From the IMG/VR virus record IMGVR_UViG_3300008108_000364, positions 1 to 22,378 of that record: a stretch of DNA of 22,378 nt; one strand, written 5' to 3'. Positions 1 to 21,384 of the stretch are shown in pieces. The notes beneath the pieces were generated by a model. It had not been told where the DNA came from, searched no databases, and was given only the letters and a program-made list of their open reading frames with translations. Positions within the stretch are counted from its first letter, which is position 1. The number at the start of each line of letters is the position of its first letter. This stretch comes from a virus. Position numbers and translations under genes: made by a program.

Positions 1-103
1 CCGATATATCACGGTCTAATAGATGGATAGAAGGTAGTATCATGTGTTTCATGCCGTCTGCGCTTGTTTTTTGGGCGGCGGCGGTTCAAAAAAAGGAGGT
101 TTT

Positions 104-397: not shown

Positions 398-428
398 GGC
401 CGACCGGGCTAACAAAGGAGGAACGAGA

Positions 429-632
429 ATGCCGAATTACAAGTATACCATGACCGAACAGATCACGGCATCCATTGAGGTGACCGTGGAGGCAGACAAC
501 GAAGAAGAGGCTATGGAACTGGCAAGGGAAAAGGCCTTTGCTATCCCCCTGCATAGGGAGGAATGGCAGAGCGAATCCGAGATCATCGAGGAAGACATTG
601 AGGAGTTGCGAGGGGAGGTGCGGAATGGCTAA
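429..632 (+). CDS. Small conserved-fold protein, paralogue of the next gene
   Basis: 67-aa acidic protein with no recognised family. It shares a clear pattern with the N-terminal half of the next protein: KYT, then SI or SIE, an acidic stretch, A-x-E-x-AR-x2-AF, PL and W. This is consistent with a small alpha/beta domain duplicated in tandem. The start follows AAAGGAGGAACGAGA. It ends 8 bases inside the next gene, so the two are probably translationally coupled. Confidence 0.85.
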   Translation: MPNYKYTMTEQITASIEVTVEADNEEEAMELAREKAFAIPLHREEWQSESEIIEEDIEELRGEVRNG

Positions 633-939
633 GTACACGGTGTTGGTGACCGAGAGCATCAAAGCTCACATCTATATCCAGGTCGAGGAATATGATGACG
701 ACCAGGCCCTGGAGAAGGCGCGGGACGAGGCCTTCAACACGCCGTTGAATCAGTGGACGATCACCGACGAAGATGGCGACATGGAGTTTGAAAAGGAGTT
801 GGGTCGGGGCACGGAAAAGTGCGATAACTGCGGTGTTTTGACCGATAATCACCACGAAGTGGTTTGGGAAAGCACCGGAGATGTGGAGTTGTACTGCGAC
901 AATTGCCATAAGGAGCAGTCATGCAATACCCAGAGTTGA
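625..939 (+). CDS. Paralogue of previous gene with added C-terminal zinc ribbon
   Basis: 104 aa. Residues 1-60 repeat the fold of the preceding protein (KYT, SI, AL-E-x-AR-x-EAF, PL, W). Residues 66-94 add a four-cysteine ribbon, Cys66-x2-Cys69 and Cys91-x2-Cys94, with a His-His pair at 76-77 between them. The GGGGAGGTG before the ATG lies inside the upstream gene. Function unknown; the ribbon suggests nucleic-acid or protein contact. It overlaps the next gene by 19 bases. Confidence 0.85.
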   Translation: MAKYTVLVTESIKAHIYIQVEEYDDDQALEKARDEAFNTPLNQWTITDEDGDMEFEKELGRGTEKCDNCGVLTDNHHEVVWESTGDVELYCDNCHKEQSCNTQS

Positions 940-1184
940 AGGCCTGGAAAATCCGCAACGCCGACGATGGGAAGGCCTACATTCGGTGGCTTGTGGCCAA
1001 CAAACTGACCTTTCATTTTGACGACAGTCCGGAGGACATCATCTGGTCGGGGACAGACAAAAAGCCAACCCCGGAGGATGTCGCCGAGTTGTCGAGAATC
1101 CACGATGAGTTGTGGGGCGCAGGCGATCCCTGGGCTTGGCTGGAAGACCAGGAACTATGGAACCTTTATATGGGAGGTGAATGA
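921..1184 (+). CDS. Hypothetical acidic Trp-rich protein
   Basis: 87 aa, not assigned to a family. It is acidic and rich in Trp (about seven), with no transmembrane segment or cysteine motif. The start is supported by AAGGAG five bases upstream, inside the end of the preceding gene. Its stop overlaps the start region of the next gene (GAATGATGG), typical of the coupled arrangement here. Confidence 0.85.
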   Translation: MQYPELKAWKIRNADDGKAYIRWLVANKLTFHFDDSPEDIIWSGTDKKPTPEDVAELSRIHDELWGAGDPWAWLEDQELWNLYMGGE

Positions 1185-1363
1185 TGGATAGTTTCTTTGA
1201 ATACATGGAAGAATTTCGGCAGCGTTACAGAGTCAGCAGAACCGCTGTCATCCGACTGTTGTCGGACTTCATAGACGATCACGGGGTGGACAACGAGGCG
1301 AACGGTTATGTGGGAGGCGCGGATGTGGACCTGCTCAAGGAGATGGACCCGACCGATGACTGA
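1184..1363 (+). CDS. Hypothetical small protein
   Basis: 59 aa; a basic, helical N-terminal half (EEFRQRYRVSRTAVIRLL) and an acidic C-terminus. The first half could be a small helix-turn-helix-like segment (RVSRTAVIRLLSDFI), but this is only suggestive. Two adjacent ATGs (1181 and 1184) are possible; GGGAGG is better spaced for the second. Just after its stop lies a short sequence that would encode an LSQTDNELQ tail in another frame, like the C-termini of three other genes here. Confidence 0.75.
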   Translation: MDSFFEYMEEFRQRYRVSRTAVIRLLSDFIDDHGVDNEANGYVGGADVDLLKEMDPTDD

Positions 1364-1429
1364 GCCAAACCGACAACGAACTGCAATAGGGTTGGAACGA
1401 CTCACCGGGCTAATGGAAGGAGGACGCAA

Positions 1430-1621
1430 ATGATCATTGACAGGCTGACAGGTGCAGATGTATCCGTGATTATAAGTGCTATAGATCTTGCTATTGAGGC
1501 TAGCAAGGGCAGGAGCAGGCGCATCAATGAACTCCTGACTGCAAAGCACAGGGTATTATGCGCCAAATCCGAGGAAGAAGAAGTTTATAACCCCGAGAAA
1601 TCGGGGGGTGTTGTGGAGTGA
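1430..1621 (+). CDS. Hypothetical small protein
   Basis: 63 aa, no family recognised. An amphipathic helical N-terminal part (IISAIDLAIEASKGRSRRINELL) is followed by a charged end. The start follows GAAGGAGGACGCAA. It lies 66 bases after the preceding gene, and that gap carries the orphan QTDNELQ-coding remnant. Confidence 0.75.
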   Translation: MIIDRLTGADVSVIISAIDLAIEASKGRSRRINELLTAKHRVLCAKSEEEEVYNPEKSGGVVE

Positions 1622-1656
1622 GGGATATTAAGCTGGACAGTCTTAAGGAGGTTTCA

Positions 1657-1953
1657 ATGGACATTTCTAAGCTGGCGGGTGCTTTTATGACCCATCACGA
1701 CATTCTGGATGAGTTCCGCCCGGACTGGACGGAAGAGCGGGCCAAGGCCTGGCTGGAATGCAACCGGAAGAAACTCGGCGACCTCATGTACCAGGCAGGA
1801 CTGGATGCTATGGAGAGGTTGCTGGACAAGCAGTACCCCAGGGGCGAGTTCTGTGAGTGTTGTGAAGACTTCTTCGACGCGTCGGACATGGTCGGGGACA
1901 CATGCAAGGACTGCATGAAATCGGCGGGTCAAACGAAGGACGAACTGCAATAA
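1657..1953 (+). CDS. Small protein with C-terminal Cys cluster and QTKDELQ tail
   Basis: 98 aa. The N-terminal two thirds are helical and charged (DWTEERAKAWLECNRKKLG). The C-terminus carries a compact zinc-ribbon-like cluster, CECC followed by CKDC. It ends in SAGQTKDELQ, a tail also seen on an unrelated 245-aa protein downstream. The ATG after TCTTAAGGAGGTTTCA was chosen over an upstream GTG at 1618 that lacks a good ribosome site. Function unknown. Confidence 0.8.
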   Translation: MDISKLAGAFMTHHDILDEFRPDWTEERAKAWLECNRKKLGDLMYQAGLDAMERLLDKQYPRGEFCECCEDFFDASDMVGDTCKDCMKSAGQTKDELQ

Positions 1954-1969
1954 CAACAGGAGGTGTTCA

Positions 1970-2581
1970 ATGCGAATTCTTGTGGCTTGCGAGAGCAGCG
2001 GTGTGGTGCGTGAGGCTTTCAGGTCTTTTGGGCACGATGCCTGGAGTGCGGATGTGCTTCCGGCAGACGATGGCAGTCCCCATCACATTCAGGGGGATGC
2101 GACGAAGATTCTCGGCGATGGGTGGGACATGCTGATCGCTCACCCCCCATGTACCTACCTGACGAATGCCGGGGTGCGTTGGTTGTACAACGCCGACGGG
2201 ACCAGGAACGAGGAGCGTTGGGAGGCGATGCGGGAGGGCGCAAAGCTGTTCCTCGCCTTCTGGAATGCCCCGGTGGAGAGGGTGTGTGTGGAGAACCCCG
2301 TCATGCACCGATACGGCAAGGAGATCATCCGAGCCAGCTTCGCCCAAAGCGTCCAGCCCTACGACTTCGGACACAAGGAGGTCAAGCGGACTTGCTTCTG
2401 GCTGCGTGGCCTACCCAGGCTTGAGCCGACAACCAACCTGAAGCAGGAGACGATGTCCCTGCCGTACAAGGACCGGGCGAAGGTGCATCTGACCTCGCCG
2501 GGGCCGAACCGATGGAAGATACGGAGCAAGACCTACCGTGGGATTGCCCGAGCAATGGCGCAGCAATGGGGAGGGCGATGA
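1970..2581 (+). CDS. C5 cytosine methyltransferase-like protein (compact)
   Basis: 203 aa, shorter than active C5 DNA methyltransferases (usually 300 or more). The N-terminus (MRILVACESSGVVREAF) matches the S-adenosylmethionine-binding motif I. HPPCTYL with Cys61 occupies the position of the catalytic PC motif, and VENP at 107-110 that of the ENV motif. Downstream, GHKEVKRTCFWLRGLP resembles the QxRxR/motif VIII area, but no clear target-recognition domain or GNxV motif X remains. Members of this compact family are common in phages and their activity is largely untested. It may methylate DNA or a nucleotide. The start follows ACAGGAGGTGTTCA; the stop overlaps the next start (ATGA). Confidence 0.85.
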   Translation: MRILVACESSGVVREAFRSFGHDAWSADVLPADDGSPHHIQGDATKILGDGWDMLIAHPPCTYLTNAGVRWLYNADGTRNEERWEAMREGAKLFLAFWNAPVERVCVENPVMHRYGKEIIRASFAQSVQPYDFGHKEVKRTCFWLRGLPRLEPTTNLKQETMSLPYKDRAKVHLTSPGPNRWKIRSKTYRGIARAMAQQWGGR

Positions 2582-2901
2582 CGATGTCTATCGGCAACTA
2601 CCGACAAGAATTTACCGACTACGACGAGGACTTGACAACGCGTGTCGCCCCCCTCCTGGGGATGGGCTTCAAGGATGTGTCCTGGAAACAGGATCAATGC
2701 CCACACTTTGCAAGCGACACGCTCTGTGTCTGGATCGACTACAAGGACCCGGAGTTGCGGTACGATCCGGATGCCGGATGTCGGCGCTACACGGTGGTGA
2801 GGCTGGAGGGTGGATGCTACAAGAGTGTGGTGGAGTACATGCTGGAAACCGATGACTGGCAGGATGTTCTTGACTTGGTCCGTAAGGACATGGCAGTTTA
2901 A
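2578..2901 (+). CDS. Hypothetical protein
   Basis: 107 aa, no family recognised. It has scattered Cys and His (CPHF, DTLC, DAGCRRY, GGCY) that might bind a metal but form no standard motif, and a helical acidic C-terminus. The ATG overlaps the stop of the methyltransferase-like gene (ATGA), with GGGGAGGG just upstream, so it is probably co-translated with it. Confidence 0.85.
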   Translation: MTMSIGNYRQEFTDYDEDLTTRVAPLLGMGFKDVSWKQDQCPHFASDTLCVWIDYKDPELRYDPDAGCRRYTVVRLEGGCYKSVVEYMLETDDWQDVLDLVRKDMAV

Positions 2902-2921
2902 TGTTACCTAGGAGGACAACG

Positions 2922-3182
2922 ATGAAGATCAAGGCTGATTTGACGGAAGCGGAATTCGATGGGCTGGATGCGAAGCTGTTCATGGAAGTGGGCGGGACAA
3001 CCACGGTGTTGTTCTGGACCCTGTCCAAAGAATGGGCCGCCTTCAGCATCGGCTGGCAGGAGGAGTCGGGCCGACTGAACTTCTACGAAGGAACCGAAGT
3101 GGTGAAGACAAAACGCAACATCAGCCTGGAAGATGCGGTGACGCTAGTCCGGGCGGCGCAGATTGAAAGGAGGGCGTCATGA
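2922..3182 (+). CDS. Hypothetical protein
   Basis: 86 aa, mixed alpha/beta, no cysteines and no transmembrane segment. The ribosome site CTAGGAGGACAACG is nearly the same as that of the 245-aa gene downstream (CTAGGAGGACAGATTA). It overlaps the next gene by four bases (ATGA). Function unknown. Confidence 0.85.
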   Translation: MKIKADLTEAEFDGLDAKLFMEVGGTTTVLFWTLSKEWAAFSIGWQEESGRLNFYEGTEVVKTKRNISLEDAVTLVRAAQIERRAS

Positions 3183-3469
3183 CCGAGGAACTGAAGGTGG
3201 CGATTCTGAAGTACATCGACAGGTGGGGATTGGGCAAGGATCACAGATTCTACGACCCGAAGGAATGGCAGGGGCGAGGCGAGGAGATGGGGCAGTACGC
3301 CGACCTCACCCTCACCTGCGAGGGAACTCTCAATCATGTCCTCAACGGTTACAGGACAGACTCCAGGCATCTGATTGATGACTTCAACCGGACGGTGAAC
3401 GGTACTGGTTACTGGTACGAATGGGGTCATGCTTGGTCGATTCACTTTTACAAAATGGAGAAGAAATGA
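3179..3469 (+). CDS. Hypothetical protein
   Basis: 96 aa; aromatic C-terminal half (GYWYEWGHAWSIHFYKM). No family recognised. Start preceded by GAAAGGAGGGCGTC within the upstream gene and overlapping its stop; the stop again overlaps the next start (ATGA). This is part of a chain of at least three overlapping genes. Confidence 0.85.
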   Translation: MTEELKVAILKYIDRWGLGKDHRFYDPKEWQGRGEEMGQYADLTLTCEGTLNHVLNGYRTDSRHLIDDFNRTVNGTGYWYEWGHAWSIHFYKMEKK

Positions 3470-3690
3470 TCTGGAATCACATCAAGACCTACTCGGCTAT
3501 GGAAGATGGGGCAGAGGCTTCAGTCTATCAGTCGGGTGACTTGGTCAAGTTCTATCAGATCGTGGTCAAGCCCAGGAGCGGGTGCGGGTTCACAATCAGC
3601 ACGGGTTCGGGGATGGGGCACGAGGCGAACTGGATCGCCAAGCGGATCAGCGAGGGAATGTTGAGCCTAACCCCAGGGAAACTGCAATAA
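3466..3690 (+). CDS. Hypothetical protein ending in LTPGKLQ
   Basis: 74 aa with a Gly- and Ser-rich centre (SGCGFTISTGSGMGHE). The tail LSLTPGKLQ, and the DNA around its stop (AACTGCAATAAGG), resemble the QTKSELQ tails of two other proteins here. The ribosome site is weak (GGAGAAGAA), consistent with coupling to the upstream gene through an overlapping stop. Function unknown. Confidence 0.8.
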   Translation: MIWNHIKTYSAMEDGAEASVYQSGDLVKFYQIVVKPRSGCGFTISTGSGMGHEANWIAKRISEGMLSLTPGKLQ

Positions 3691-3710
3691 GGGTGAAAAG
3701 GAGGTGACAC

Positions 3711-3989
3711 ATGGCGGTTGAAGAGACTTTGGCGTACAAGATCAATCTGGCATGGCCGAAGACATACGAGTGGCACAAGATGGATGCGGGTCAAGTCCAA
3801 GCGTTGAGCGATCCGCAATACATCGGCGGCTTGGTGAATAAGCCGGTCAAATGGGGAAAGTTTCTCAATCGCTGGGTTTGTGCCTGGGCGATGCAGAAAA
3901 TCCTCCCCTGTGGATGGATTTACCGCGTCGGACTGAGGAATGGTAAGACTTTCGACTATCTGGTTGTTCACAAGGAGGAAGTGCAATGA
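3711..3989 (+). CDS. Hypothetical protein
   Basis: 92 aa, basic and Trp-rich (about six), no cysteine motif. The start follows AAAAGGAGGTGACAC, a strong ribosome site. It overlaps the next gene by four bases. A possible small beta-rich domain; function unknown. Confidence 0.85.
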   Translation: MAVEETLAYKINLAWPKTYEWHKMDAGQVQALSDPQYIGGLVNKPVKWGKFLNRWVCAWAMQKILPCGWIYRVGLRNGKTFDYLVVHKEEVQ

Positions 3990-4243
3990 GCGAGTTGCTG
4001 CATGCGAAACTGAAAACTCTGTGCATATTCATCGAAAAGAAAGAGGATGGCTATCTCCTCTCCTGGGGCGACTATGTGGCGAACAGCTGGGATGAGAAGT
4101 GCGCCACGCTCAGCCAAGCCCTGATCCGGGCAGCGATGCTGGCGAGGATCGATGAGAGCGATAGCGACAAGTTCTTCACCGTGTCGGAAGAGGAACTCCC
4201 CGCAGTCAGCGAAAAGTTCTTCGGCGAAACACTTTCCGACTAA
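3986..4243 (+). CDS. Hypothetical acidic protein
   Basis: 85 aa, acidic C-terminal half (DESDSDKFFTVSEEELPAV). The pattern of a short beta segment (YLLSWGDYVANSW) followed by a helix (LSQALIRAAML) recalls small phage antitoxin- or HicB-like folds, but no assignment is made. Start overlaps the previous stop; AAGGAGG lies upstream inside the previous gene. Confidence 0.85.
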   Translation: MSELLHAKLKTLCIFIEKKEDGYLLSWGDYVANSWDEKCATLSQALIRAAMLARIDESDSDKFFTVSEEELPAVSEKFFGETLSD

Positions 4244-4258
4244 CAAGGAGAAGTGACG

Positions 4259-4450
4259 ATGGCGATTCGACCGAGCCTGTCTCTGTGGCGTTACATGTTC
4301 GTCAACAAGTACGCCCAACTGACAGGCATGTCCTGGGAAGACGGTGGCGGCGACGATGAGGAGATTGAGAAATACTTCGATCTGAACTTTACCCCAGCCG
4401 AGGCGGTGGAAGATCAGATATGTAAGTATGATCTGGATTGTGTTCTTTAA
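4259..4450 (+). CDS. Hypothetical small protein
   Basis: 63 aa, strongly acidic (GGGDDEEIEKYFD). The ATG was chosen over an in-frame GTG six bases upstream because it is better spaced from AAGGAG. No family recognised. Confidence 0.8.
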   Translation: MAIRPSLSLWRYMFVNKYAQLTGMSWEDGGGDDEEIEKYFDLNFTPAEAVEDQICKYDLDCVL

Positions 4451-4469
4451 CCCAAAGGAGGAATGGCAA

Positions 4470-4775
4470 ATGTTAAAGGATCAAGTGCATGTCGGTATGA
4501 AGGTGTTGTTCGGGAGACCGAACGGGACAAAGACCCTGGGTGTGGTCGAGAAAATCAACCCATCGAGGGCGAAGATCAAGAAATTCGACTCTCTGGGGTC
4601 GATGTGGATGGTGCCCTACTCGCTGATCTACCCTATCGATGGCGACATCGAAAAGCCCGGGTTGACCCAGCCGGTGAGCATGGTGCATCAGCGAGTGGAG
4701 CAACTGGTCAACCGCCACGGCCTGGCCGAGGTCGTTGCCGCCCTGAAGAAAATCACCGGGAAATCCGAACTATGA
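4470..4775 (+). CDS. Conserved phage/plasmid-type hypothetical, SH3-like barrel
   Basis: 101 aa. The N-terminal 55 residues (VHVGMKVLFGRPNGTKTLG, VVEKINPSRAKIKKF, WMVPYSLIYPI) have the strand-turn pattern of a small KOW/SH3-like barrel that I associate with hypothetical proteins on phages and plasmids. The last 35 residues are helical. The start follows AAAGGAGGAATGGCAA. Its C-terminus (TGKSEL) partly resembles the shared KSELQ tails. The stop overlaps the next start. A nucleic-acid-binding role is possible but unproven. Confidence 0.85.
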   Translation: MLKDQVHVGMKVLFGRPNGTKTLGVVEKINPSRAKIKKFDSLGSMWMVPYSLIYPIDGDIEKPGLTQPVSMVHQRVEQLVNRHGLAEVVAALKKITGKSEL

Positions 4776-5029
4776 AAATGGTGAGGATGTCAAGGGAGGC
4801 GGCCGCGCAACTCACAAAGATCATTGAGTTGCACGGTTCGTCTATCTTGCCAAACAAGGACTTGCTGCTGCTGATGAAGGAAGTCAGCAGAGTCTTCTTC
4901 AACAATGACACGGGGGACAATCCAGATGCGACAAAAGAGAAAGTTGACAGCGTTCGTCTACAGGAATCTCCACCACCCAGGAGTGGTCTGGTCCGCAAAA
5001 TCAAGCGAGGGGAAAGTCATTTTGCATGA
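4772..5029 (+). CDS. Hypothetical protein
   Basis: 85 aa, basic C-terminus (RSGLVRKIKRGE). Helical N-terminus with a leucine-rich stretch (KDLLLLMKEVSRVF). Its ATG overlaps the previous stop (ATGA), and its last 104 bases overlap the next gene in another frame. That long overlap makes its C-terminal third less certain. Confidence 0.7.
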   Translation: MKMVRMSREAAAQLTKIIELHGSSILPNKDLLLLMKEVSRVFFNNDTGDNPDATKEKVDSVRLQESPPPRSGLVRKIKRGESHFA

Positions 5030-5324
5030 CGAGAACCTCCTAGTTAAGAATGTTCAGTTCGTTGTTCAGCCAGGCGGCCGGGATCGGGTGAGGGCATTGG
5101 GCAAAAAGCTGGTTCATGCCGGAGTCAAGGGGGAGATCGTGACCGACCCCATCGAGGCTGGCAAACTCATCAGCAGTATGCCCAAAGACAAGACTGCCTA
5201 CTACAACCCCTACAAGGTGGACAGTTTTGTGGACGGCGACGGGAAAAAGCTCGAGACCGCGGGGGTGGTGCTGCTGACCAGCGTGGACGGCAAGCCCAGG
5301 CTTTTCTTCCAGGAGGCTGCATGA
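4926..5324 (+). CDS. Conserved hypothetical protein (phage/plasmid type)
   Basis: 132 aa. It begins MRQKRKLTAFVYRNLHH, continues with beta-rich segments (GKVILHDENLLVKNVQF, GRDRVRALGKK) and ends in a segment (YYNPYKVDSF, GVVLLTSVDGKPRLFF) typical of small conserved proteins found near phage replication or recombination genes. From memory such proteins carry VYxNLHxxxWS and RxNVHAxVxG motifs, matched here by VYRNLHHPGVVWS and KLVHAGVKG. The role is unknown. The start is set by GGGGGAC upstream and overlaps the preceding gene by about 100 bases. Confidence 0.8.
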   Translation: MRQKRKLTAFVYRNLHHPGVVWSAKSSEGKVILHDENLLVKNVQFVVQPGGRDRVRALGKKLVHAGVKGEIVTDPIEAGKLISSMPKDKTAYYNPYKVDSFVDGDGKKLETAGVVLLTSVDGKPRLFFQEAA

Positions 5325-5566
5325 TGGCGAACAAGAACACCGAACTGCCCGATCTGGGGAGGGTTAGCCTGACCAAGATGCGAAAGCTGAAGGTTGGTCA
5401 GACGATTGGTTTTGACCGGCCTGATGTCCGGACAGATCGGTATGTCAGCGGCAATATCATGAGGCTCAGGCTCCTGGGCGGGGAATACACGACCAAGATC
5501 GCAATCCTGGTCGATCCCAAGGCGGCGGTTTCCAAGAAGGTTATTTTTGTAACAAGGACAGAATAA
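5324..5566 (+). CDS. Hypothetical basic protein
   Basis: 80 aa, basic (about 15 Lys/Arg), beta-rich, no Cys. Possible small nucleic-acid-binding fold, not assigned. Two adjacent ATGs exist (5321, 5324); AGGAGG suits the second. It overlaps the upstream stop. Confidence 0.8.
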   Translation: MANKNTELPDLGRVSLTKMRKLKVGQTIGFDRPDVRTDRYVSGNIMRLRLLGGEYTTKIAILVDPKAAVSKKVIFVTRTE

Positions 5567-5611
5567 AATGACACATCTTGATTGGAGAAAGGTTACGAAG
5601 GAGGTATCACA

Positions 5612-5806
5612 ATGAACAGGTTGTCGGGACTGTACACGGCAAACGCCTTCGGGGATGTTGAGTTCCTGAAGGACTTGAGCGTGGATGAACTGGTTGACGA
5701 GTGCGGGAAACTGCTGCGGCACTGGGTGGGTGTGCTGGGTTGGGACCTGGGCGACACGACCGCAGACAAGATCGCCAATTTTCTGGAAAGGGAGTGGGGA
5801 CGATGA
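5612..5806 (+). CDS. Hypothetical small acidic protein
   Basis: 64 aa, acidic and helical (VDELVDECGKLLRHWVG, TADKIANFLEREWGR). Start follows GAAGGAGGTATCACA. A 15-codon reading frame from 5568 ends exactly over this ATG, but its own ribosome site is poor. The stop overlaps the next start (GATGATG). Function unknown. Confidence 0.8.
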   Translation: MNRLSGLYTANAFGDVEFLKDLSVDELVDECGKLLRHWVGVLGWDLGDTTADKIANFLEREWGR

Positions 5807-5958
5807 TGTACGAGATTCAGTTTGAAAACGAGATCAGCAGCGGTAGAAAGATGTTCCATGCAAATTCAGAAGTGGAGGCGTTGAGAAAATTCCGAGAATC
5901 CTACGAAGGTTATGAGATTCCATCGCACTGGGTGGTGGGCATCTGGTCCGTTGACTAA
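5803..5958 (+). CDS. Hypothetical small protein
   Basis: 51 aa (50 if the second ATG is used). The pattern MYEIQFE...FHANSEVEALRKF resembles the small beta-strand/helix domains that adapt arrays of phage peptides, such as the paralogous pair near the left end, but similarity is weak. Its stop TAA overlaps the following ATG (TAATG). Confidence 0.75.
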   Translation: MMYEIQFENEISSGRKMFHANSEVEALRKFRESYEGYEIPSHWVVGIWSVD

Positions 5959-6194
5959 TGGAGTTCCATGAGATGGAAATGATTCCCGATGACAACGCCT
6001 ACAACTTCCGCTATTTGGAAGTTTCACACCGGGCCGGGTACTGCCAGCTATACGAGTTGAACGACCGCGTCTCGGTGAAGCTGATCCACGATGCAGCCAG
6101 GCAACTGAAGATGCGCTGGGCAGAAGCCTGGGCGACCCTCATGAGGGGCAACGAGCTTAAGCTGAAGAACTCGGTGTTTCGTTTGGCAAAGTAA
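5958..6194 (+). CDS. Hypothetical protein
   Basis: 78 aa, slightly basic C-terminus, helical (SVKLIHDAARQLKMRWAEAWATLM). No ribosome site; start is coupled by TAATG overlap. A 207-aa antisense reading frame runs across it, but that one lacks a good start site. Function unknown. Confidence 0.75.
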   Translation: MEFHEMEMIPDDNAYNFRYLEVSHRAGYCQLYELNDRVSVKLIHDAARQLKMRWAEAWATLMRGNELKLKNSVFRLAK

Positions 6195-6219
6195 TTGACT
6201 TTTCTAGGAGGACAGATTA

Positions 6220-6957
6220 ATGTTGAAGTGCAAATTGCAACTACGAAATTCAATCTTGGGGCGGGGGCTTTTCCCCGTTGACGGCGAATGCAAGTCGATC
6301 CTCGACAAGCTTTACGGTTCCGACTACGACAAGCTGAAGAGGAGCGAAGTCTGCTGTATGAAGAACGATGTCCAGGCATGTCTGGCCCACATCCGATCCG
6401 TCGCCAACAGCTACGGTTTGAAAGTGTCGGTCTGCGGCAGCAAACACGCCCCGACATTGAGGTTCTTCGCCAGGAAGGAGATGGAGGACAAACCGACCGA
6501 GGAGGTGTCGGTTGATCTGCGCTACTCCATGTGGAGTGACGAACAGGCCATGTGGGAGGAGTTCGCCCCAGGTGTGTGGGAGAAGATGCGGAACGCGTTT
6601 GAAGGCAAGTCAGGCCCGATAACGATTCACACAAACCCCAAGAAGGAAATCTACCACGGCACGGTGACCATTTTCAAAGGAAAGGCTTGCGGTGCCCTGA
6701 CCACGGAATGGGACGATCCCGAATCCCTGGCTGGCACGCTGGGCGTGCCTTGCGACGAAGCTTTCATCGATTCGATTCCATTCACGGCAGAGAACATGGC
6801 TCCTGGGATTGGATGGAACTTCAAGATCAAGGCAAGAAGTTTCCAGGCCTTGGTCAAAAAGATAGACAGAGGGGAGGGAGAACTGATCAAGCAAGACGAA
6901 AACGAATGGGACCTTCTGGCGAAATCGGTTAGTCAAACGAAAAGCGAACTGCAATAA
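6220..6957 (+). CDS. Hypothetical 245-aa protein with QTKSELQ tail
   Basis: This is the largest protein of the left block. An N-terminal segment with a Cys-Cys pair (SEVCCMKNDVQACLAHI) is followed by a beta-rich domain (TLRFFARKEM, VSVDLRYSMW, ITIHTNPKKEIYHGTVTIF) and a Lys-rich helical C-terminus (KARSFQALVKKIDRGEG). No family recognised. It ends KSVSQTKSELQ, the same tail as the 98-aa zinc-binding protein upstream. The start follows CTAGGAGGACAGATTA. Confidence 0.85.
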   Translation: MLKCKLQLRNSILGRGLFPVDGECKSILDKLYGSDYDKLKRSEVCCMKNDVQACLAHIRSVANSYGLKVSVCGSKHAPTLRFFARKEMEDKPTEEVSVDLRYSMWSDEQAMWEEFAPGVWEKMRNAFEGKSGPITIHTNPKKEIYHGTVTIFKGKACGALTTEWDDPESLAGTLGVPCDEAFIDSIPFTAENMAPGIGWNFKIKARSFQALVKKIDRGEGELIKQDENEWDLLAKSVSQTKSELQ

Positions 6958-6976
6958 GGATGAAAGGGGGTTTGCG

Positions 6977-7183
6977 ATGACGAAAGACGAACATGTGAAA
7001 CGGACGATCAAGGCTTACCGCGTCGTGATCCGAAAGATCAAGAGGCTGAAAGCCAAGAAAAATCCTCTGGCAGATTCTTATCAACTGTTGGCCGGGCTGG
7101 CTTCTGCCCATCTGGCTGAGCTTGGCGTGGACTTCAAGAAGATTCTGCGCCAGGAATTTCCAAACGCAAAGTGGGAGGATTGA
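6977..7183 (+). CDS. Hypothetical basic small protein
   Basis: 68 aa, very basic N-terminal half (KRTIKAYRVVIRKIKRLKAKK), mostly helical; could bind nucleic acid. Start follows GAAAGGGGGTTTGCG. The DNA just upstream (AACTGCAATAAGGATGAAA) is one copy of the shared gene-end sequence. Confidence 0.8.
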   Translation: MTKDEHVKRTIKAYRVVIRKIKRLKAKKNPLADSYQLLAGLASAHLAELGVDFKKILRQEFPNAKWED

Positions 7184-7185
7184 TC

Positions 7186-7455
7186 ATGGCCCAGAAAAAA
7201 AACTTGGTTTCTTTGCCGGGGCGTGGAGGAAGCGGTCGGTATCTGCTGCAAGAGTTTCCCATCGACTGGGACGGTCGCGGGTTTCAGTATGAAAAATTGT
7301 ACGATGATCGTGCGAAGTACAATGTGTTCCTTTCCAATGAGGGATGTGAACACGACAGCTGCGACTGCCCGGATGCGACCTTCCGGGAAAGGCGGTGCAA
7401 ACACATCGAGGCAGCCAGGGCGTTCCTGGTTGCAAGCTTGAGGAAAGGAGTTTAA
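7186..7455 (+). CDS. Small SWIM zinc-finger protein
   Basis: 89 aa. C59-x-C61 followed by C71-x-H73 (CDC, then RRCKHIEAARAF) fits the SWIM zinc-finger consensus CxCxnCxH, which binds DNA or proteins in transposase-, helicase- and recombination-linked proteins. The first 50 residues form a short beta-rich lead (YLLQEF, FQYEKLYDD, YNVFLS), as in free-standing SWIM proteins. The start follows GTGGGAGGATTGATC. This is a family-level call from the motif only; partner and role are unknown. Confidence 0.8.
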   Translation: MAQKKNLVSLPGRGGSGRYLLQEFPIDWDGRGFQYEKLYDDRAKYNVFLSNEGCEHDSCDCPDATFRERRCKHIEAARAFLVASLRKGV

Positions 7456-7457
7456 GA

Positions 7458-7781
7458 ATGAACGAGACAACCACCACATGGATCGACCTTGCGTCCGAAC
7501 AAGCAGACATCGCAGCCGAGTCTGTTTTTGAAGCGGCGAAGGAATTCGTCAACGAAAAGGACGCTCAACATCTGGCTGACCAGGCATGGGCTAGGACGAT
7601 TCGTTTTGAGTTGTGGTCTCCTGGAAGCAAAACAATCAAGGAGATGGGTGCTTCCGATGAAGGTATCATCTGCGGCAACATCATTGACTGGCTCAGAAGG
7701 AGGGCAGGCGAATCACCAAAACTCAAAAAATATGACATGGCCTTTAGGCTCCTGGAAGAAGGATGGTTTGCCTTCAAATAG
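7458..7781 (+). CDS. Hypothetical helical protein
   Basis: 107 aa, mostly helical, acidic N-terminal half. No family recognised. Start follows GGAAAGGAGTTTAAGA. It is the last gene before a 66-base gap that contains an inverted repeat (CCTATT...AATAGG). Confidence 0.8.
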   Translation: MNETTTTWIDLASEQADIAAESVFEAAKEFVNEKDAQHLADQAWARTIRFELWSPGSKTIKEMGASDEGIICGNIIDWLRRRAGESPKLKKYDMAFRLLEEGWFAFK

Positions 7782-7785
7782 ACTT

Positions 7786-7811
7786 GCCTATTTTGTGGCC
7801 TAACAATAGGC
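7786..7811. promoter_or_regulatory. Inverted repeat GCCTATT...AATAGGC
   Basis: Perfect 7-bp arms with a 12-base spacer in a gap between genes. There is no T-run after it, so a terminator is unlikely on its own. The same core (CCTATT...AATAGG) recurs before the sigma gene at 11424-11448. It could be an operator or a processing hairpin. Confidence 0.35.
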
Positions 7812-7847
7812 TGTTCTATGGCGTTATGTCTTTTCATGGAGGAAACG

Positions 7848-8021
7848 ATGAGCGGAATGGAAGCAAAACTGCTGGCAAAGCTAGTCGCAATCGAGCAGGT
7901 AATGTACGAGGTAATGACCGATGAGCAGCGGCAAGAATTTGCGACGCGGGTTGCGTGGCGAATGCTTGAGTGGGACAGCGAGGACATCCTGGCAGGGACG
8001 ATCTGGGAGGAAATACAATGA
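7848..8021 (+). CDS. Hypothetical small helical protein
   Basis: 57 aa, acidic and helical (LLAKLVAIEQVMYEVM). Upstream in-frame ATGs at 7818 and 7836 exist, but this ATG follows GGAGGAAACG. Its stop overlaps the next start (ATGA). Function unknown. Confidence 0.75.
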   Translation: MSGMEAKLLAKLVAIEQVMYEVMTDEQRQEFATRVAWRMLEWDSEDILAGTIWEEIQ

Positions 8022-8164
8022 TCAAAATGATCTTGGTGTTTGTCGCCGCTTTCGTGGTTGGGTGCTGCTGCCAACGGTCGATGACCGTCAAAAGCAAATT
8101 TGATCCGTACAACCAAGCGAAGCCGGTTGAGTCGATTGAGTTTCAATGGAGCATTACTTACTAG
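8018..8164 (+). CDS. Small predicted lipoprotein
   Basis: 48 aa. A hydrophobic N-terminal segment (MIKMILVFVAAFVVGCCC) ends in VVGC, matching a lipobox for signal peptidase II. This predicts a lipid-modified peptide of about 34 residues, with three adjacent cysteines, anchored in a membrane. Alternatively it is a simple single-pass membrane peptide. It is coupled to the upstream gene by overlap and is the first of three tiny membrane-protein genes within 700 bases, an arrangement seen in phage lysis or superinfection-exclusion modules. That link is inference. Confidence 0.75.
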   Translation: MIKMILVFVAAFVVGCCCQRSMTVKSKFDPYNQAKPVESIEFQWSITY

Positions 8165-8175
8165 GAGGTGAGGTG

Positions 8176-8262
8176 ATGGTTCAAATTCTGGTAATTGCTG
8201 GCCTTTTGGCCACGCAATGGTTGTTCTTTTACTGCGAATGGGACAATGGAGGTGATCAATGA
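8176..8262 (+). CDS. 28-residue membrane peptide
   Basis: MVQILVIAGLLATQWLFFY forms a single hydrophobic segment followed by a short acidic tail (CEWDNGGDQ). The ribosome site is strong (CTAGGAGGTGAGGTG), and the stop overlaps the next ATG. The tight fit between two genes argues for a real gene despite its size. Function unknown. Confidence 0.65.
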   Translation: MVQILVIAGLLATQWLFFYCEWDNGGDQ

Positions 8263-8570
8263 ACAGATTGCTTAAGATTTTTTCTAAGTGTGAACAAGAT
8301 ATCCACAAGCGATTTGGCAACAATACTGATCTGCTAGAAGCCAAGGGACCGCCGAGGTGGTCTCCGGAAACATGGGGTTGGGTCGAGCAAAGGGTCAGCC
8401 TTTTTGAGGAGGTGGCAGAGTGGGCAACACCCCAGGAAAAACAGACAGTTCGTTCCTGGTTGGGAGGCAGCGTCGAAGAATACAATGCCAAGGATGCCGT
8501 GGTGCGAGCCTGCTTTGAACATGTGGTCGCAACAGTAGATCGCTTCCTCAACGAGAAAGGACACAACTAA
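8259..8570 (+). CDS. Hypothetical protein
   Basis: 103 aa, helical, with Trp-rich middle (PPRWSPETWGWVEQRVSLF). Start overlaps the previous stop and follows GGAGGTGATCA. Its stop TAA overlaps the next ATG. No family recognised. Confidence 0.85.
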   Translation: MNRLLKIFSKCEQDIHKRFGNNTDLLEAKGPPRWSPETWGWVEQRVSLFEEVAEWATPQEKQTVRSWLGGSVEEYNAKDAVVRACFEHVVATVDRFLNEKGHN

Positions 8571-8680
8571 TGGGAATTGCTTTTGCGATTGGCATGGTTC
8601 TAATTTTTCTCAAAGCGTTCTTTGATGAACTGGAAGAACTCTCCTGGGGTTGTACCCGTTATGTCGGGAGAAAACGATGA
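8570..8680 (+). CDS. 36-residue membrane peptide
   Basis: MGIAFAIGMVLIFLKAFF is a hydrophobic segment followed by a charged tail (DELEELSWGCTRYVGRKR). Positive residues at the end suggest a cytoplasmic C-terminus. It starts on TAATG, with AGAAAGGA just upstream, and ends on an ATGA overlap. Function unknown. Confidence 0.6.
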   Translation: MGIAFAIGMVLIFLKAFFDELEELSWGCTRYVGRKR

Positions 8681-8964
8681 AGCTGGTAAAAAACAACGGG
8701 AAAATCGTGGTGTTTCGACATCACGATCATTTTCGCCAGGCGGTTTCCAAAGGCCACCCCAGAAGAATCATTCTGGAGGTGGCCGGTTCGTTTGCCCATC
8801 TGACTGTACTGGCCAAAGAAGGCCGGTTGACGATTACTTACCCCAGCGTGGCAGCCATGAAAAAAGCTTTGGCAAACTGGCGTTCGCTGGAAGGTATCCC
8901 AATGATCGTCAACGGGAAGAAGCGCGGGTGCGTTTCTCGGAACAATCCGGAACTGATCGCATAA
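8677..8964 (+). CDS. Hypothetical basic protein
   Basis: 95 aa, strongly basic, beta-rich (KIVVFRHHDHF, RRIILEVAGSF, LTVLAKEGRLTITYP), with a RNNPELIA end. Nucleic-acid binding is plausible but not shown. Start coupled by ATGA, with GGGAGAAAACG upstream. A longer overlapping frame (8622-8999) is Ser/Arg/Gly-rich and lacks a ribosome site. Confidence 0.8.
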   Translation: MKLVKNNGKIVVFRHHDHFRQAVSKGHPRRIILEVAGSFAHLTVLAKEGRLTITYPSVAAMKKALANWRSLEGIPMIVNGKKRGCVSRNNPELIA

Positions 8965-8973
8965 GGAGCAACA

Positions 8974-9291
8974 ATGCCCAGGGGAAGAAGGCCGATTGAG
9001 GAGATCACCGACAAGCAGAAAGAAGTTCTGAAGCTGCTCATCTCTCTGACGGAGAAAAACGGCTATCAACCGAGTCGGGACGAGCTAGCTCTGATCATTG
9101 GAACGACAAGACATGCGGTGACACAGAGGGTTTGGCAGCTTGAGAAAAAAGGCTATCTGGAAAAACCTCCGCAGGGAGGCGAAAGATGTCTGAGGATACC
9201 AGGCATCAGTTTCAGGGCTGTGCGGAACAAGCAGGAGATACCGGAAATGAACCGCGGTGTGGTCAAGGAAATCGTGGGGGGAATGAAATGA
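8974..9291 (+). CDS. LexA N-terminal-type winged-helix DNA-binding protein
   Basis: 105 aa. Residues 10-75 match the LexA DNA-binding domain: ITDKQKEVLKLLISLTEKNGYQPS, then RDELALIIGTTRHAVTQRVWQLEKKGYLEK, where helix 3 reads the operator. No Ala-Gly cleavage site or Ser/Lys protease dyad follows, so it cannot be a self-cleaving LexA. It is probably a small phage transcription regulator using the same fold. The C-terminal 30 residues are unrelated. Start follows ATAAGGAGCAACA. Confidence 0.85.
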   Translation: MPRGRRPIEEITDKQKEVLKLLISLTEKNGYQPSRDELALIIGTTRHAVTQRVWQLEKKGYLEKPPQGGERCLRIPGISFRAVRNKQEIPEMNRGVVKEIVGGMK

Positions 9292-9569
9292 GCAAGTATG
9301 TGGCGGTAGTGATCGACTGCGAGAACAACGCCGACCTGTGGTGGGAGAACATGCGGAAGTGCGCCCCGGCGTTCACCGCATCCCTCTCCAGGGACGGCGT
9401 GGCTGTGATCCGCAAGGAGTTGTGCGAAATACTGGCTGGCGTACCTGGCTATAAAGAAAGTGACTCGCCAGACTACGCCCCGTTCCCGGTGATCTTTTAC
9501 GAGGAGGGACACAGGGACTGGGAATCGCTGACGAGAGAAACGCATCTGGTTTTTGACGAGTTGTCCTAA
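9288..9569 (+). CDS. Hypothetical protein
   Basis: 93 aa, acidic, alpha/beta pattern beginning MSKYVAVVIDCENNADLWW. No family recognised. ATG overlaps the end of the LexA-like gene; GGGGGG lies upstream. Function unknown. Confidence 0.85.
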   Translation: MSKYVAVVIDCENNADLWWENMRKCAPAFTASLSRDGVAVIRKELCEILAGVPGYKESDSPDYAPFPVIFYEEGHRDWESLTRETHLVFDELS

Positions 9570-9583
9570 CAGGAGGATGTGCA

Positions 9584-10048
9584 ATGGAAAGCTTGACGGA
9601 TTTGGACTGCGTGATGATCGACAACATCCGTTTCATGCGGAAAGTCCGCAACAGCCCTGGGGGGCCATCAAGTTCCGGCTCGTATGCCAGCGACACCGGG
9701 CGATACTGGTTCGATGGCAAGGACGAGTCCGGCCTGATCCAGGTTTACCGGGGCGAAATCGGCGACAAGTCCAAGCCGGTCGGCGACGAGAACAGCGTCA
9801 TGACCGAGATCATCTCCCGATGCGGGGAAAACGATCTGGACAAGCGCAAGGCCGCTGTGCAGCAGGAACGGCTGTATCGCATCTGGGGCGGACGGGAGGA
9901 GTACTACAAGACCTTCCCCTGGCTGAAGGGGGGCTATCTGCCCCATCGGGATGCCGATGTGGTGGACAACTGCTGCACGGAGTGCGGGGTGCGCGGACTG
10001 GCCAAGGGGCTGGTGCGGTGCAACCGGTGTCGTCGTGGTGAATTCTAA
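9584..10048 (+). CDS. Hypothetical protein with C-terminal zinc ribbon
   Basis: 154 aa. The C-terminal 30 residues contain CCTECGVRG and CNRCRRGEF, a four-cysteine ribbon. The centre is charged and helical (DKRKAAVQQERLYRIWGGREE). Start follows AACAGGAGGATGTGCA. Probably a nucleic-acid- or protein-binding accessory protein; no family name is assigned. Confidence 0.85.
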   Translation: MESLTDLDCVMIDNIRFMRKVRNSPGGPSSSGSYASDTGRYWFDGKDESGLIQVYRGEIGDKSKPVGDENSVMTEIISRCGENDLDKRKAAVQQERLYRIWGGREEYYKTFPWLKGGYLPHRDADVVDNCCTECGVRGLAKGLVRCNRCRRGEF

Positions 10049-13681: not shown

Positions 13682-13870
13682 ATGACGATCGCCGACTACC
13701 GGCTCCATCGGTGGTTTGAGGCGATAGAGAAGGCCAGAAAGTCTGGCTACCGGGTTGTCTCCGTCCGGTGTGTGCGCGGTTGGATTTTCAACTCGTATGT
13801 AGCGGCCCTGACCTTGAGTTCCGGGTTCGCTGTTGATTTTTCCATAGGGCCAGTTCGGAGTCGTTCCTGA
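13682..13870 (+). CDS. Hypothetical small protein upstream of methyltransferase
   Basis: 62 aa, basic. A GTG at 13652, coupled to the upstream stop, would add ten residues; the ATG after CGAGGGCGACCTG is preferred because nearly all genes here start with ATG. Helix, then beta segments (YRVVSVRCVRGWIFNSY). Its stop overlaps the methyltransferase ATG, so the two are probably translated together. Confidence 0.7.
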   Translation: MTIADYRLHRWFEAIEKARKSGYRVVSVRCVRGWIFNSYVAALTLSSGFAVDFSIGPVRSRS

Positions 13871-16104
13871 TGCGTTATTTATCTGTTTGCAGCGGTATTG
13901 AAGCAGCGACCCAGGCCTGGCACCAACTGGGCTGGACTCCTGTGGCATTCAGCGAGATTGAATCGTTTCCCTCTTCTGTTTTGAAGTACCGTTACCCCGA
14001 TGTCCCGAATTGGGGTGACATGACCCGATGGAGAGAATGGCCAGATGAAAAGATCGAAGTCCTCGTCGGCGGCACCCCTTGTCAAAGCTTCAGCGTCGCA
14101 GGCCTCAGGAAAGGCCTCACTGACCCCCGCGGCGGCCTCATGCTTGACTATGTTGGAATCGCTGGGCGTTACCGACCTAAGTATATCATCTGGGAAAATG
14201 TCCCCGGTGTTCTCACATCAAACGGAGGACGGGATTTTGGAACCCTCCTCGGGGCGTTGGGGGACCTGGGGTATGACCTCGCCTACCGGGTTCTTGACGC
14301 TCAATGGGTCCGAACACAACAGTTTCCACACGCCGTCCCACAGCGTAGACGCCGTGTGTTCGTTGTCGGATGTCTTGGAGAGAGGGGTCGTGCCGCCGAG
14401 ATACTTTTTAAGTCCGAAAGCCTGTGCGGGAATCCTCCGACGCGCAGAAAAACGGGGCAAGGCCTTGCCAGAGATGTTGCACCGAGCCTTGTTAGCAGTG
14501 GTCGAGGCGTCGAACGAACAGGAGAATCCCGAGGGCAAGACCCAGTCGTAGGTTGCTGGTGGGACGGCGGTCAGGTCAGCCAGACTCTGGACGCCGTCCT
14601 TTCCAAGGGGCAGACCATGCCGGAAAAGAACCGTTTTCCAGCCGTTCTTCAGGGCAAGTTGGATTGGCCTGCCGATGTCAGCTGCTCATTGAATGCGTCA
14701 TTCGGAAACAAGCAGGGCCTGGAGGATCAGCATGTTGACAGCGCCTGCCCGATGTTTGTTCCTGGAGTGGTCGCTCCGACCCTGACTGCCACCAACGATC
14801 CCAGCCGCAGTCCTCAGTCGGCGGAAATCACCGCCCAAGTTGCTGCCGTTGTGGAAGCCATGGCCTTCGCCCAAAACCAAGTGGGCGAGGTGCGGACGAA
14901 CAACATCGCCAACACTTTGAACACCAACAGCAATGCCAGCGGACGGAACACGCCGTTGGTCGCCGTGTCGGTGGACGAGGACTTGGTCCTGATGGATCAG
15001 GGAGGGTCGGTCATGCAGACTCTTCAGGACGGTTCCGTCGGGACTCTCCGCAGGGAAATGCACGGCCACGAGCCTATAGTCCTCCACGCCGTGGGGACGG
15101 ACTGCTACAACGGGGCGATCACGGGCGATGTGGCGGCGACGATGGGAACGCCAGGCTCCAGCGTGAACGCCAGCGGGCCGACTGTCATGCAGCCTGTCGA
15201 AGTGCCGGATGTGGCCGGGACCATGAAGTCCTGCGCCAATTCTGGTGGTTGGAGCAACAGCGCAGATCATGCAGCCGCCGGATACATGCTGCCCGTTTCT
15301 GATACTGCTAATGGAGTTGCTTTTACCTTCAGCGGTTATTCTAACCAGCCAGCTTGGATAACTGGTGACAGGACAGATTGTTTGTCGTCAAGTGGACACA
15401 GCGACGGAAGCCATCAAGGCATAGGAATAATAACGAATCCGACATCGTTCCATCCAACTCAGGATCCGATACCGTCGGAAGACGGTAAGTGCCACGCAAT
15501 CGGGTGCGGGAGTAAAACAGGCTGTGCGACGGCCGCCGTTGCTTATGTGAAATCCACCAATCCCCACAACAAGGAGGAGGCTCCCACCTTCAATGAAACC
15601 GAGGTCGCCGCCTGCCTGAACGGGTGGGACGAGAGGCACAACCCGCCAAAACACATGGCTATCGCCATGCAGGATGTCCGCGGGCTTGACAAAAAACAGA
15701 ATGGGCGTGGTTGGAACGACGAAGGAACTAGTTACACGGTTGACGCTTCGGCTACTCAGGGGGTTGCTGTGGACGCTGAAGGCGTGGCTTATCACGCCAG
15801 CAGACGAGACAGCGTCAGGGTCAATGTCGGAGTCAGCCCGACTGTTGAAGCGCAATGGGGGACGGGCGGAAACAATGTGCCGAATGTCATGAACAAAATG
15901 CCTCCGATGGTAGTCCGCAGACTTACTCCTGAAGAATGCGAATCACTCCAGGGATTTCCCCGTGGTTGGACAAACATACCCCACAAGAAGAAGCCCGATT
16001 CGCCGGACGGCCCCAGATACAAAGCCTTAGGAAACAGCATGGCTTGCAACTGCATGCAATGGCTTGGCGAAAGGATTCAAGCTGCGGAAAACAGAACTTT
16101 GTGA
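13870..16104 (+). CDS. C5 DNA cytosine methyltransferase with expanded target-recognition region
   Basis: 744 aa, about twice the usual length. Motif I YLSVCSGIEAATQAWHQLG, catalytic motif IV GGTPCQSFSVAG (Cys71), motif VI WENVPG (Glu109), motif VIII PQRRRRVFVVG (about 157-167), motif IX RRLTPEECESLQGFP (about 683) and motif X ALGNSM (about 719-724) are all present. It should methylate cytosine C5 in DNA with S-adenosylmethionine. The roughly 500 residues between VIII and IX are a string of degenerate repeats (APTLTAT, ANTLNTN, AGTMKSC, SPTVEAQ, each followed by Gly/Asn-rich runs), as in multispecific phage enzymes. Target unknown. No partner endonuclease is visible, so protection from host restriction is likely. 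Confidence 0.93.
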   Translation: MRYLSVCSGIEAATQAWHQLGWTPVAFSEIESFPSSVLKYRYPDVPNWGDMTRWREWPDEKIEVLVGGTPCQSFSVAGLRKGLTDPRGGLMLDYVGIAGRYRPKYIIWENVPGVLTSNGGRDFGTLLGALGDLGYDLAYRVLDAQWVRTQQFPHAVPQRRRRVFVVGCLGERGRAAEILFKSESLCGNPPTRRKTGQGLARDVAPSLVSSGRGVERTGESRGQDPVVGCWWDGGQVSQTLDAVLSKGQTMPEKNRFPAVLQGKLDWPADVSCSLNASFGNKQGLEDQHVDSACPMFVPGVVAPTLTATNDPSRSPQSAEITAQVAAVVEAMAFAQNQVGEVRTNNIANTLNTNSNASGRNTPLVAVSVDEDLVLMDQGGSVMQTLQDGSVGTLRREMHGHEPIVLHAVGTDCYNGAITGDVAATMGTPGSSVNASGPTVMQPVEVPDVAGTMKSCANSGGWSNSADHAAAGYMLPVSDTANGVAFTFSGYSNQPAWITGDRTDCLSSSGHSDGSHQGIGIITNPTSFHPTQDPIPSEDGKCHAIGCGSKTGCATAAVAYVKSTNPHNKEEAPTFNETEVAACLNGWDERHNPPKHMAIAMQDVRGLDKKQNGRGWNDEGTSYTVDASATQGVAVDAEGVAYHASRRDSVRVNVGVSPTVEAQWGTGGNNVPNVMNKMPPMVVRRLTPEECESLQGFPRGWTNIPHKKKPDSPDGPRYKALGNSMACNCMQWLGERIQAAENRTL
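14045..14551 (+). CDS. Possible overlapping gene in the +1 frame of the methyltransferase
   Basis: A 168-codon open frame lies wholly inside the methyltransferase gene. Its last 75 codons (VCSLSDVLERGVVPPRYF, SPKACAGILRRAEKRGKAL) look like a real helical protein. From memory I recognise this pattern in stand-alone hypothetical proteins annotated near phage C5-methyltransferases. The first half is Ser/Ala-rich and less protein-like. There is no strong ribosome site at the ATG; internal starts (14195, 14273) are possible. It may be dual coding, or it may simply mirror conserved methyltransferase sequence. Confidence 0.4.
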   Translation: MKRSKSSSAAPLVKASASQASGKASLTPAAASCLTMLESLGVTDLSISSGKMSPVFSHQTEDGILEPSSGRWGTWGMTSPTGFLTLNGSEHNSFHTPSHSVDAVCSLSDVLERGVVPPRYFLSPKACAGILRRAEKRGKALPEMLHRALLAVVEASNEQENPEGKTQS

Positions 16105-20527: not shown

Positions 20528-21064
20528 ATGTACTGGATTGGTTTTGTTCTGACGGCTTGGTTGACCGCCGACTTCCTGACCGGTCTGTTCCACTGGTTTG
20601 AGGATCGGTACGCCAATCCCAAATGGCCCGTCTTTGGCCCCTTAGTGGCCGCCCCCAACGAATTGCACCACGCCGAACCCCGCGCCTTCCTGCGGGGAAG
20701 CTACTGGGATCGCAACAACACCACCCTCATCCCCTGTCTGACTGTCGCCGCCCTCCTGGCCTACCAGGAGCAATGGTGGTGGGCATTGGTCGCTTTCTGC
20801 GCGGCCCAGGCCAACGAGCTACACGCCTTCACCCACCGGGCCGGTATTCCCCGCCCGATCCGCGTCCTACAGGACACGGGAATCCTCCAGAACGCCCGCC
20901 ACCATGCCCGCCATCATGTCAATCCTTACGCCAGTCATTTCTGTGTGATGTCCAGCTGGCTCAATCCTGTGCTGGATAGCGTAGGTTTTTGGCGTTTCTT
21001 GGAATGGTTCGTTTATTTGGTCCTAAGGGTTAAGCCCAAGCAGGACCGCCTAGGAGAATTGTGA
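20528..21064 (+). CDS. CarF/TMEM189-type plasmanylethanolamine desaturase homologue
   Basis: 178 aa membrane protein. The histidine motifs of this family appear in order: GLFHWFEDR (His22, Asp26), NELHHAEP (His47-48), NELHAFTH (His99, 103), ARHHARHHVNP (His125-130), and then YASHFCVMSSWLNP followed by LDSVGFWRFLE. These hold a di-iron centre that forms the vinyl-ether bond of plasmalogens from plasmanyl lipids. Two hydrophobic stretches (1-20, 66-95) fit membrane insertion. Bacterial CarF mediates a singlet-oxygen response in myxobacteria. A copy in a phage-like context is unusual. Substrate in this host is inferred. The ribosome site is weak (TAGAGG). Confidence 0.85.
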   Translation: MYWIGFVLTAWLTADFLTGLFHWFEDRYANPKWPVFGPLVAAPNELHHAEPRAFLRGSYWDRNNTTLIPCLTVAALLAYQEQWWWALVAFCAAQANELHAFTHRAGIPRPIRVLQDTGILQNARHHARHHVNPYASHFCVMSSWLNPVLDSVGFWRFLEWFVYLVLRVKPKQDRLGEL

Positions 21065-21384
21065 TGCTACAAGAGATCAAGTCCCAGCATAATGTGGACG
21101 AAAACGGCAACCCGGCTGGGGGGAACACCTGGGGGGTTGGAATCCAAATTGAGTGGCAGAACGGCCCTCTGGCTGTTGACGGCGTCCGCAAGGAACCCAA
21201 CGGGGCGTTCGTGGAAGGGGTGATTCAAGCCGCCCTGGACCGCCTCCAGTTTTACCAGTCGGGCAAGTTCGCCTGTCGGGAGAACGCCTTGGCCATTACC
21301 AAGCTGGAAGAGGCTCTCCATAGGTGCCAGCACCGCACCGCCAACAGGGAGAAGCGGGGCGTGGAAGGGACTCACGCCGTATGA
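21064..21384 (+). CDS. Acb2/Tad1-like nucleotide-sponge protein (candidate anti-defence)
   Basis: 106 aa. The N-terminal part (GVGIQIEWQNGPL) gives strands, then NGAFVEGVIQAALDRLQFYQ, then FACRENALAITKLEEALHRC and the end QHRTANREKRGVEGTHAV. The CRENALAITxLEEAxxxxxxRT and RGVEGTH segments are, from memory, hallmarks of the Acb2/Tad1 helical-hairpin family. Acb2 proteins soak up cyclic nucleotides made by CBASS, and Tad1 proteins soak up the gcADPR signal of Thoeris. Which ligand this one binds cannot be told from sequence. Start ATG is spaced from AGGAG; an adjacent GTG is possible. Coupled to the desaturase gene. Confidence 0.8.
   Translation: MLQEIKSQHNVDENGNPAGGNTWGVGIQIEWQNGPLAVDGVRKEPNGAFVEGVIQAALDRLQFYQSGKFACRENALAITKLEEALHRCQHRTANREKRGVEGTHAV

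Follow-up and report, generated by a model that had tools for sequence, protein, structure and literature searches.

Described relatives of the gene

The enzymes closest to the gene discussed here are the plasmalogen-forming plasmanylethanolamine desaturase CarF/TMEM189 (PEDS1) and the plant trans-16:1 phosphatidylglycerol desaturase FAD4, both of which contain the PF10520 (Lipid_desat) domain with the same eight metal-site histidines. FAD4 shares the superfamily motifs yet makes a different double bond, and F118 (mouse PEDS1 numbering) is among the residues totally conserved between the two enzymes (PMC8960569). Exchanges in mouse PEDS1 have shown how much single positions matter, as D100A has no activity, F118A has 6%, and H131A retains about 7% (PMC8960569). 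H131 is a ninth, PEDS1-specific histidine that FAD4 lacks. Its counterpart in CarF (H113) is essential for CarF and occurs in metazoan, myxobacterial, and Leptospira homologs, and plants usually have an arginine at this position (PMC9131029).

Lipid desaturation is also known as an auxiliary function of viruses. Arctic viruses and cyanophages carry fatty acid desaturases of the stearoyl-CoA/cyanobacterial type that are proposed to raise the unsaturation of host membrane lipids, with membrane fluidity and virion release as the proposed benefits (PMC7300359). These proteins were modeled on stearoyl-CoA desaturase (PMC7300359), whereas the protein described below has PF10520 as its only family above cut-off in a Pfam scan. 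Our literature search found no publication on phage plasmalogen auxiliary genes. Searches combining PF10520 or CarF with phage gave no mention of the accession or the Pfam name, and the matches to “CarF” concerned CRISPR CARF-domain proteins and general phage-defense work.

A lipid desaturase homolog with a complete metal site

The window, by which we mean the whole stretch of 22,378 nucleotides of viral DNA that was analyzed, encodes a protein of 178 amino acids at 20528-21064 (+) with an ATG start, exactly where the initial annotation had placed a desaturase homolog. The protein matches PF10520 over the full profile (positions 1-175 of 175) with 140.6 bits against a cut-off of 26.4 (E 7.1e-41). 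The fatty-acid hydroxylase family PF04116 (FA_hydroxylase) scores 20 bits, under its cut-off of 31, so the best match is not to the unrelated hydroxylase family that would have spoken against the annotation. No PHROGs family matches the protein, and a sequence search of the PDB with it gave no match.

All histidine motifs quoted in the initial annotation are present, namely H22-x3-D26, NELHHAEP (44-51), NELHAFTH (with H99 and H103), RHHARHHVNP (with H126, H129, and H130), NPVLD (146-150), and FWRFLE. Placed on mouse PEDS1 (numbering of PMC8960569), positions 96, 100, 118, 121, 122, and 131 correspond without gaps to 22, 26, 44, 47, 48, and 57 of the window protein, and by spacing 187, 191, 215, 218, and 219 correspond to 99, 103, 126, 129, and 130. 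The first metal-ligand histidine and the essential aspartate (H22-W-F-E-D26; mouse H96 and D100) are encoded at 20591-20605 (+) and are invariant in an alignment of 40 proteins. The segment N44-E-L-H47-H48 to G57, at 20657-20698 (+), keeps the histidine pair (mouse H121 and H122); column counts per group of sequences place N44 at the F118 position and G57 at the H131 position. Downstream, the alignment identifies H99-x3-H103 at 20822-20836 (+) (mouse H187 and H191) and the histidine box H-H126-A-R-H129-H130 at 20900-20917 (+) (mouse H215, H218, and H219).

None of the metal-binding histidines is thus lost on alignment: all eight, together with D26, keep the PEDS1 spacing. In the 40 diverse relatives, G19, H22, D26, H47, H48, H99, H103, Q115, H126, H129, H130, C139, and N146 are invariant. 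The 103 viral homologs that were counted, near-copies among them, retain the eight histidines and D26 with few exceptions. The gene is under purifying selection, with a dN/dS of about 0.05 relative to the copy on a 149-kb phage contig, 0.04-0.05 relative to copy L005, and 0.12-0.13 relative to copies L006 and L008. An AlphaFold2 model, for which 34 proteins of the window and of related loci were aligned, is all-helical and has a pLDDT of 95.7 and a pTM of 0.90. Among viral structures, the top match of the model is to a lipid desaturase domain protein of Harvfovirus (TM 0.70). Judged from its sequence, the gene is a real, conserved, and apparently intact PF10520 homolog with a complete set of metal ligands.

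Desaturase or hydroxylase

The di-metal scaffold of these enzymes also supports hydroxylases, and the protein could accordingly be a fatty-acid or lipid hydroxylase. The best Foldseek match in the PDB, with nothing else of weight, is the di-metal hydroxylase domain of Scs7p (a weak match, E 0.1), and PF04116 matches below threshold recur among the phage copies. Against this, PF10520 outscores PF04116 by more than 100 bits for the window protein, all PF04116 scores stay under the cut-off, and the characterized PF10520 enzymes considered here, PEDS1 and FAD4, are desaturases. We consider a hydroxylase unlikely.

Why plasmalogen formation is not the favored function

The initial annotation went further and called the protein a homolog of the plasmalogen-forming desaturase. 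Membership of the CarF/TMEM189 superfamily, a full metal site, and carriage by a phage all stand, but the words “plasmalogen-forming” are not supported. The motifs listed there are common to the whole superfamily, including plant FAD4.

Hallmark residues, score, and phylogeny set the window protein apart from CarF/PEDS1. At the F118 position, a phenylalanine is found in 17 of 18 CarF-type proteins from bacterial genomes but in only one of the 103 viral sequences, 98 of which have asparagine, as does the window (N44). At the H131 position, where the window has G57, the histidine is present in 17 of the 18 CarF-type proteins and in four of the 103 viral sequences. Since mouse H131A retains about 7% activity, loss of this residue alone cannot prove that plasmalogen activity is absent; published homologs from plants and alphaproteobacteria without an equivalent of the ninth histidine, on the other hand, fail to rescue a carF mutant (PMC9131029). 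The window protein is also shorter than Myxococcus xanthus CarF (178 versus 281 amino acids). It scores 71.8 bits against the NCBIfam CarF equivalog NF045946, far under the cut-off of 500 bits, a strict threshold under which the CarF-type proteins L128 (217 bits) and L113 (160 bits) also fall.

In a tree of 61 proteins, a single clade unites the CarF-type proteins (SH-aLRT 99), and it does not include the window clade; this reference set was defined by signature and NF045946 scores, and M. xanthus CarF and plant FAD4 are absent from the trees. Those of phages fall into two main groups, one of prophage and Cbk-like copies and one containing the window, together with alphaproteobacterial copies bearing the signature PNxxHH (SH-aLRT 91). 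Grouping the window clade with the CarF-type clade is rejected by the AU test (p 0.006). An earlier tree of 70 proteins agrees, with a support of 100/98 for the window clade and with alphaproteobacterial copies and that of Erythrobacter phage vB_EliS-L02 as its neighbors. The phylogeny with bacterial and phage copies, which had been suggested as a check, thus turned out against a CarF identity.

It is consequently improbable that the gene encodes a true plasmanylethanolamine desaturase making vinyl-ether plasmalogens in the infected host, even though it belongs to the same superfamily, retains the eight catalytic histidines and the D100 equivalent, and has the CarF model as its sole NCBIfam match. 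On residues, equivalog score, and tree, we dropped plasmalogen synthesis as the leading explanation. Nor does the protein fit FAD4, from which it differs by N44 instead of phenylalanine and G57 instead of the usual arginine, a separation that follows published descriptions (PMC8960569, PMC9131029).

The hallmarks themselves do occur elsewhere among phages. The PF10520 copy of LR756511, an uncultured phage of 595 kb (L016, 5983-6441), has both of them (EFQEHH and FLYHSQ), scores 90.6 bits over 153 amino acids with the CarF model, and is placed, with a long branch, among the CarF-type proteins of the tree; on its sequence, it makes a stronger candidate than the window gene for a plasmalogen enzyme encoded by a phage. 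Three contigs related to Cbk-like phages (L154, L157, and L159) have an intermediate signature, with asparagine at the F118 position and histidine at the H131 position.

CarF was reportedly confined to few bacteria. In the phylum of L113, however, 16 of 198 sampled genomes (about 8%; L128-L144) have PF10520 matches, and the CarF signature is present in nearly all of these.

Distribution across phages and bacteria

Relatives of the gene are encoded on at least 178 IMG/VR contigs according to a profile scan (of which 80 were kept), and a second scan returned 118 contigs, partly overlapping with the first set. The carriers include several unrelated phage lineages: Mu-like and P2-like prophages, the Cbk-like vB_EliS-L02, the lineage of the 149-kb contig, and freshwater phage contigs. 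Several records with apparent IMG isolate-genome numbers in their names are phage regions of 30-40 kb and, going by these names, would be prophages of sequenced isolates. Among annotated phages, only vB_EliS-L02 and LR756511 carry PF10520 relatives. The former is a cultured lytic phage of another, Cbk-like group, whose copy (UIS25202.1) is 40% identical, has all catalytic residues, and is annotated merely as hypothetical; the paper describing this phage does not mention a desaturase (PMC9127768).

PF10520 matches above the Pfam cut-off occur in five of 385 genomes from the class of an Erythrobacteraceae metagenome-assembled genome (MAG). Within the family of this MAG, a sphingomonad family, 18 of 299 genomes have matches, of which 15 are low-scoring and partial; the other three are high-scoring and full-length, and all three lie in Mu-like prophages. 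The PNxxHH signature is shared by PF10520 proteins of Alphaproteobacteria, Bacteroidota, and Verrucomicrobiota, with alphaproteobacterial proteins as the nearest cellular relatives in the trees. To our knowledge, no function is known for any of these cellular PNxxHH-type proteins. The copies in Chitinophagaceae are chromosomal, stand-alone, and not phage-borne; read by eye, they lie between an acyl-CoA dehydrogenase-like gene and xseA/dxs-like genes. The gene order in bacteria might have pointed to the substrate, but the Chitinophagaceae copies are not in a lipid operon, and this line was given up.

PF10520 copies were also seen on short contigs (3 to 27 kb; L085-L090) assigned to Pirellula and Planctomycetota MAGs. 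The three that were included in the tree (L085, L086, and L087) fall inside the phage clade, and two of these are almost identical to IMG/VR copies. These contigs may be misbinned phage or prophage.

The gene thus recurs in genuine phage genomes, as expected of a phage auxiliary gene. Such carriage had been called surprising, a judgment that needs tempering since the subclass is common in phages. Going by sequence comparison, PNxxHH represents a branch of the CarF/TMEM189 superfamily that is widespread in phages, unannotated, and apparently undescribed.

Neighboring genes and a possible link to lysis

Among 102 ORFs neighboring diverse copies, the commonest are the large and small terminase subunits, neck proteins, and PhoH; portal, tail sheath, and endolysin genes are also found beside copies. 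Because its positions vary, often among late phage genes, the gene behaves as auxiliary cargo. In the window, it is followed by an ORF of 107 amino acids with a GTG start (21061-21384, +) that overlaps its stop by four bases, so that translational coupling of the two is possible.

Alternatively, the protein might belong to the phage lysis module and alter the membrane to ensure the proper timing of holins or spanins. In the P2-like prophage L167, the gene directly follows an endolysin (phrog_7), and in the Mu-like prophage L182 it lies between weakly matching Rz-spanin-like ORFs and the small terminase gene. However, the families listed for the 102 neighboring ORFs contain just one endolysin and one amidase match, the hypothetical-labeled copy of vB_EliS-L02 lies between PhoH and portal, and the neighborhood of the window copy revealed no lysis gene. 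Although L167, L182, and, on inspection by eye, L186 had hinted at a general association with lysis cassettes, the loci taken together do not bear it out. As an overall explanation we judge lysis to have little probability, although an unproven role in the lysis of some phages is possible.

The window as part of a large phage genome

The window, an IMG/VR record, is a phage contig of a large bacterial virus. It is collinear, with some gaps and at 64-93% DNA identity, with a phage contig of 149,106 bp from another sample that encodes a terminase large subunit, portal, DNA polymerase, DnaB helicase, and ribonucleotide reductase (RNR), and over its final 9.85 kb it shares 99.98% identity with another IMG/VR record (L003). 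That the desaturase homolog really belongs to a host, the contig being mis-assembled or misclassified, is extremely improbable: no structural gene was identified within the window, but the collinear contig carries terminase, portal, and replication genes, relatives occur in an isolate phage genome and in prophages, and none of 72,556 plasmid records holds a copy, and host contamination was ruled out by the vB_EliS-L02 copy and the collinear contig.

Other genes of the window include a GNAT acetyltransferase, a LexA-type DNA-binding protein, many small ORFs, and a C-5 cytosine DNA methyltransferase of 744 amino acids at 13870-16104 (+) (PF00145, E 1.1e-43). The best methylase match of the latter spans residues 1-172 only, and its long middle part is unusual. 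Positions 1-10000 (+) are densely packed with very small ORFs (60-130 amino acids), often overlapping, and this part resembles an early or accessory region.

Proposed function

We favor, at a probability of roughly 0.68, the reading of the gene product as a small integral-membrane, O2-dependent, and probably di-iron lipid desaturase of the PF10520 family, belonging to a PNxxHH subclass distinct from CarF/PEDS1 and FAD4, that would remodel the chains of host phospholipids. The phage would make the enzyme during infection, thereby changing the hydrocarbon chains of the host membrane phospholipids. By analogy with the superfamily, an O2-dependent di-iron center, fed by electron carriers of the host, would remove two hydrogens from a membrane phospholipid chain; iron as the metal, desaturation over hydroxylation, and phospholipid acyl chains as the substrate are all presumed here. 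The enzyme probably rewrites host membrane lipids. The phage might benefit through the fluidity or stress tolerance of the infected cell's membrane, through support of membrane-dependent assembly, or through the conditions of lysis.

A bolder version of the proposed desaturase, which we put forward tentatively and hold to be rather doubtful, is that PNxxHH is a dedicated and widespread phage family with its own chemistry (neither of the vinyl-ether nor of the FAD4 type). Unrelated phages would have gained it to introduce a specific double bond into host phospholipids that favors the production or release of virions.

Significance

Phage auxiliary genes that modify lipids were already known; what is apparently undescribed is this PF10520 subclass. 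With it, the superfamily that contains the human plasmalogen enzyme gains a large set of unannotated phage genes, and the case illustrates that the histidine motifs by themselves do not mean plasmalogens. The plasmalogen label should thus be dropped unless an assay supports it. With vB_EliS-L02 and Erythrobacter litoralis DSM 8509, a cultured pair is at hand in which the function can be tested directly. If the enzyme is active, annotation under the CarF name would mislabel such phage genes, and many aquatic phages may remodel the membrane lipids of their hosts by a route that has so far gone unrecognized.
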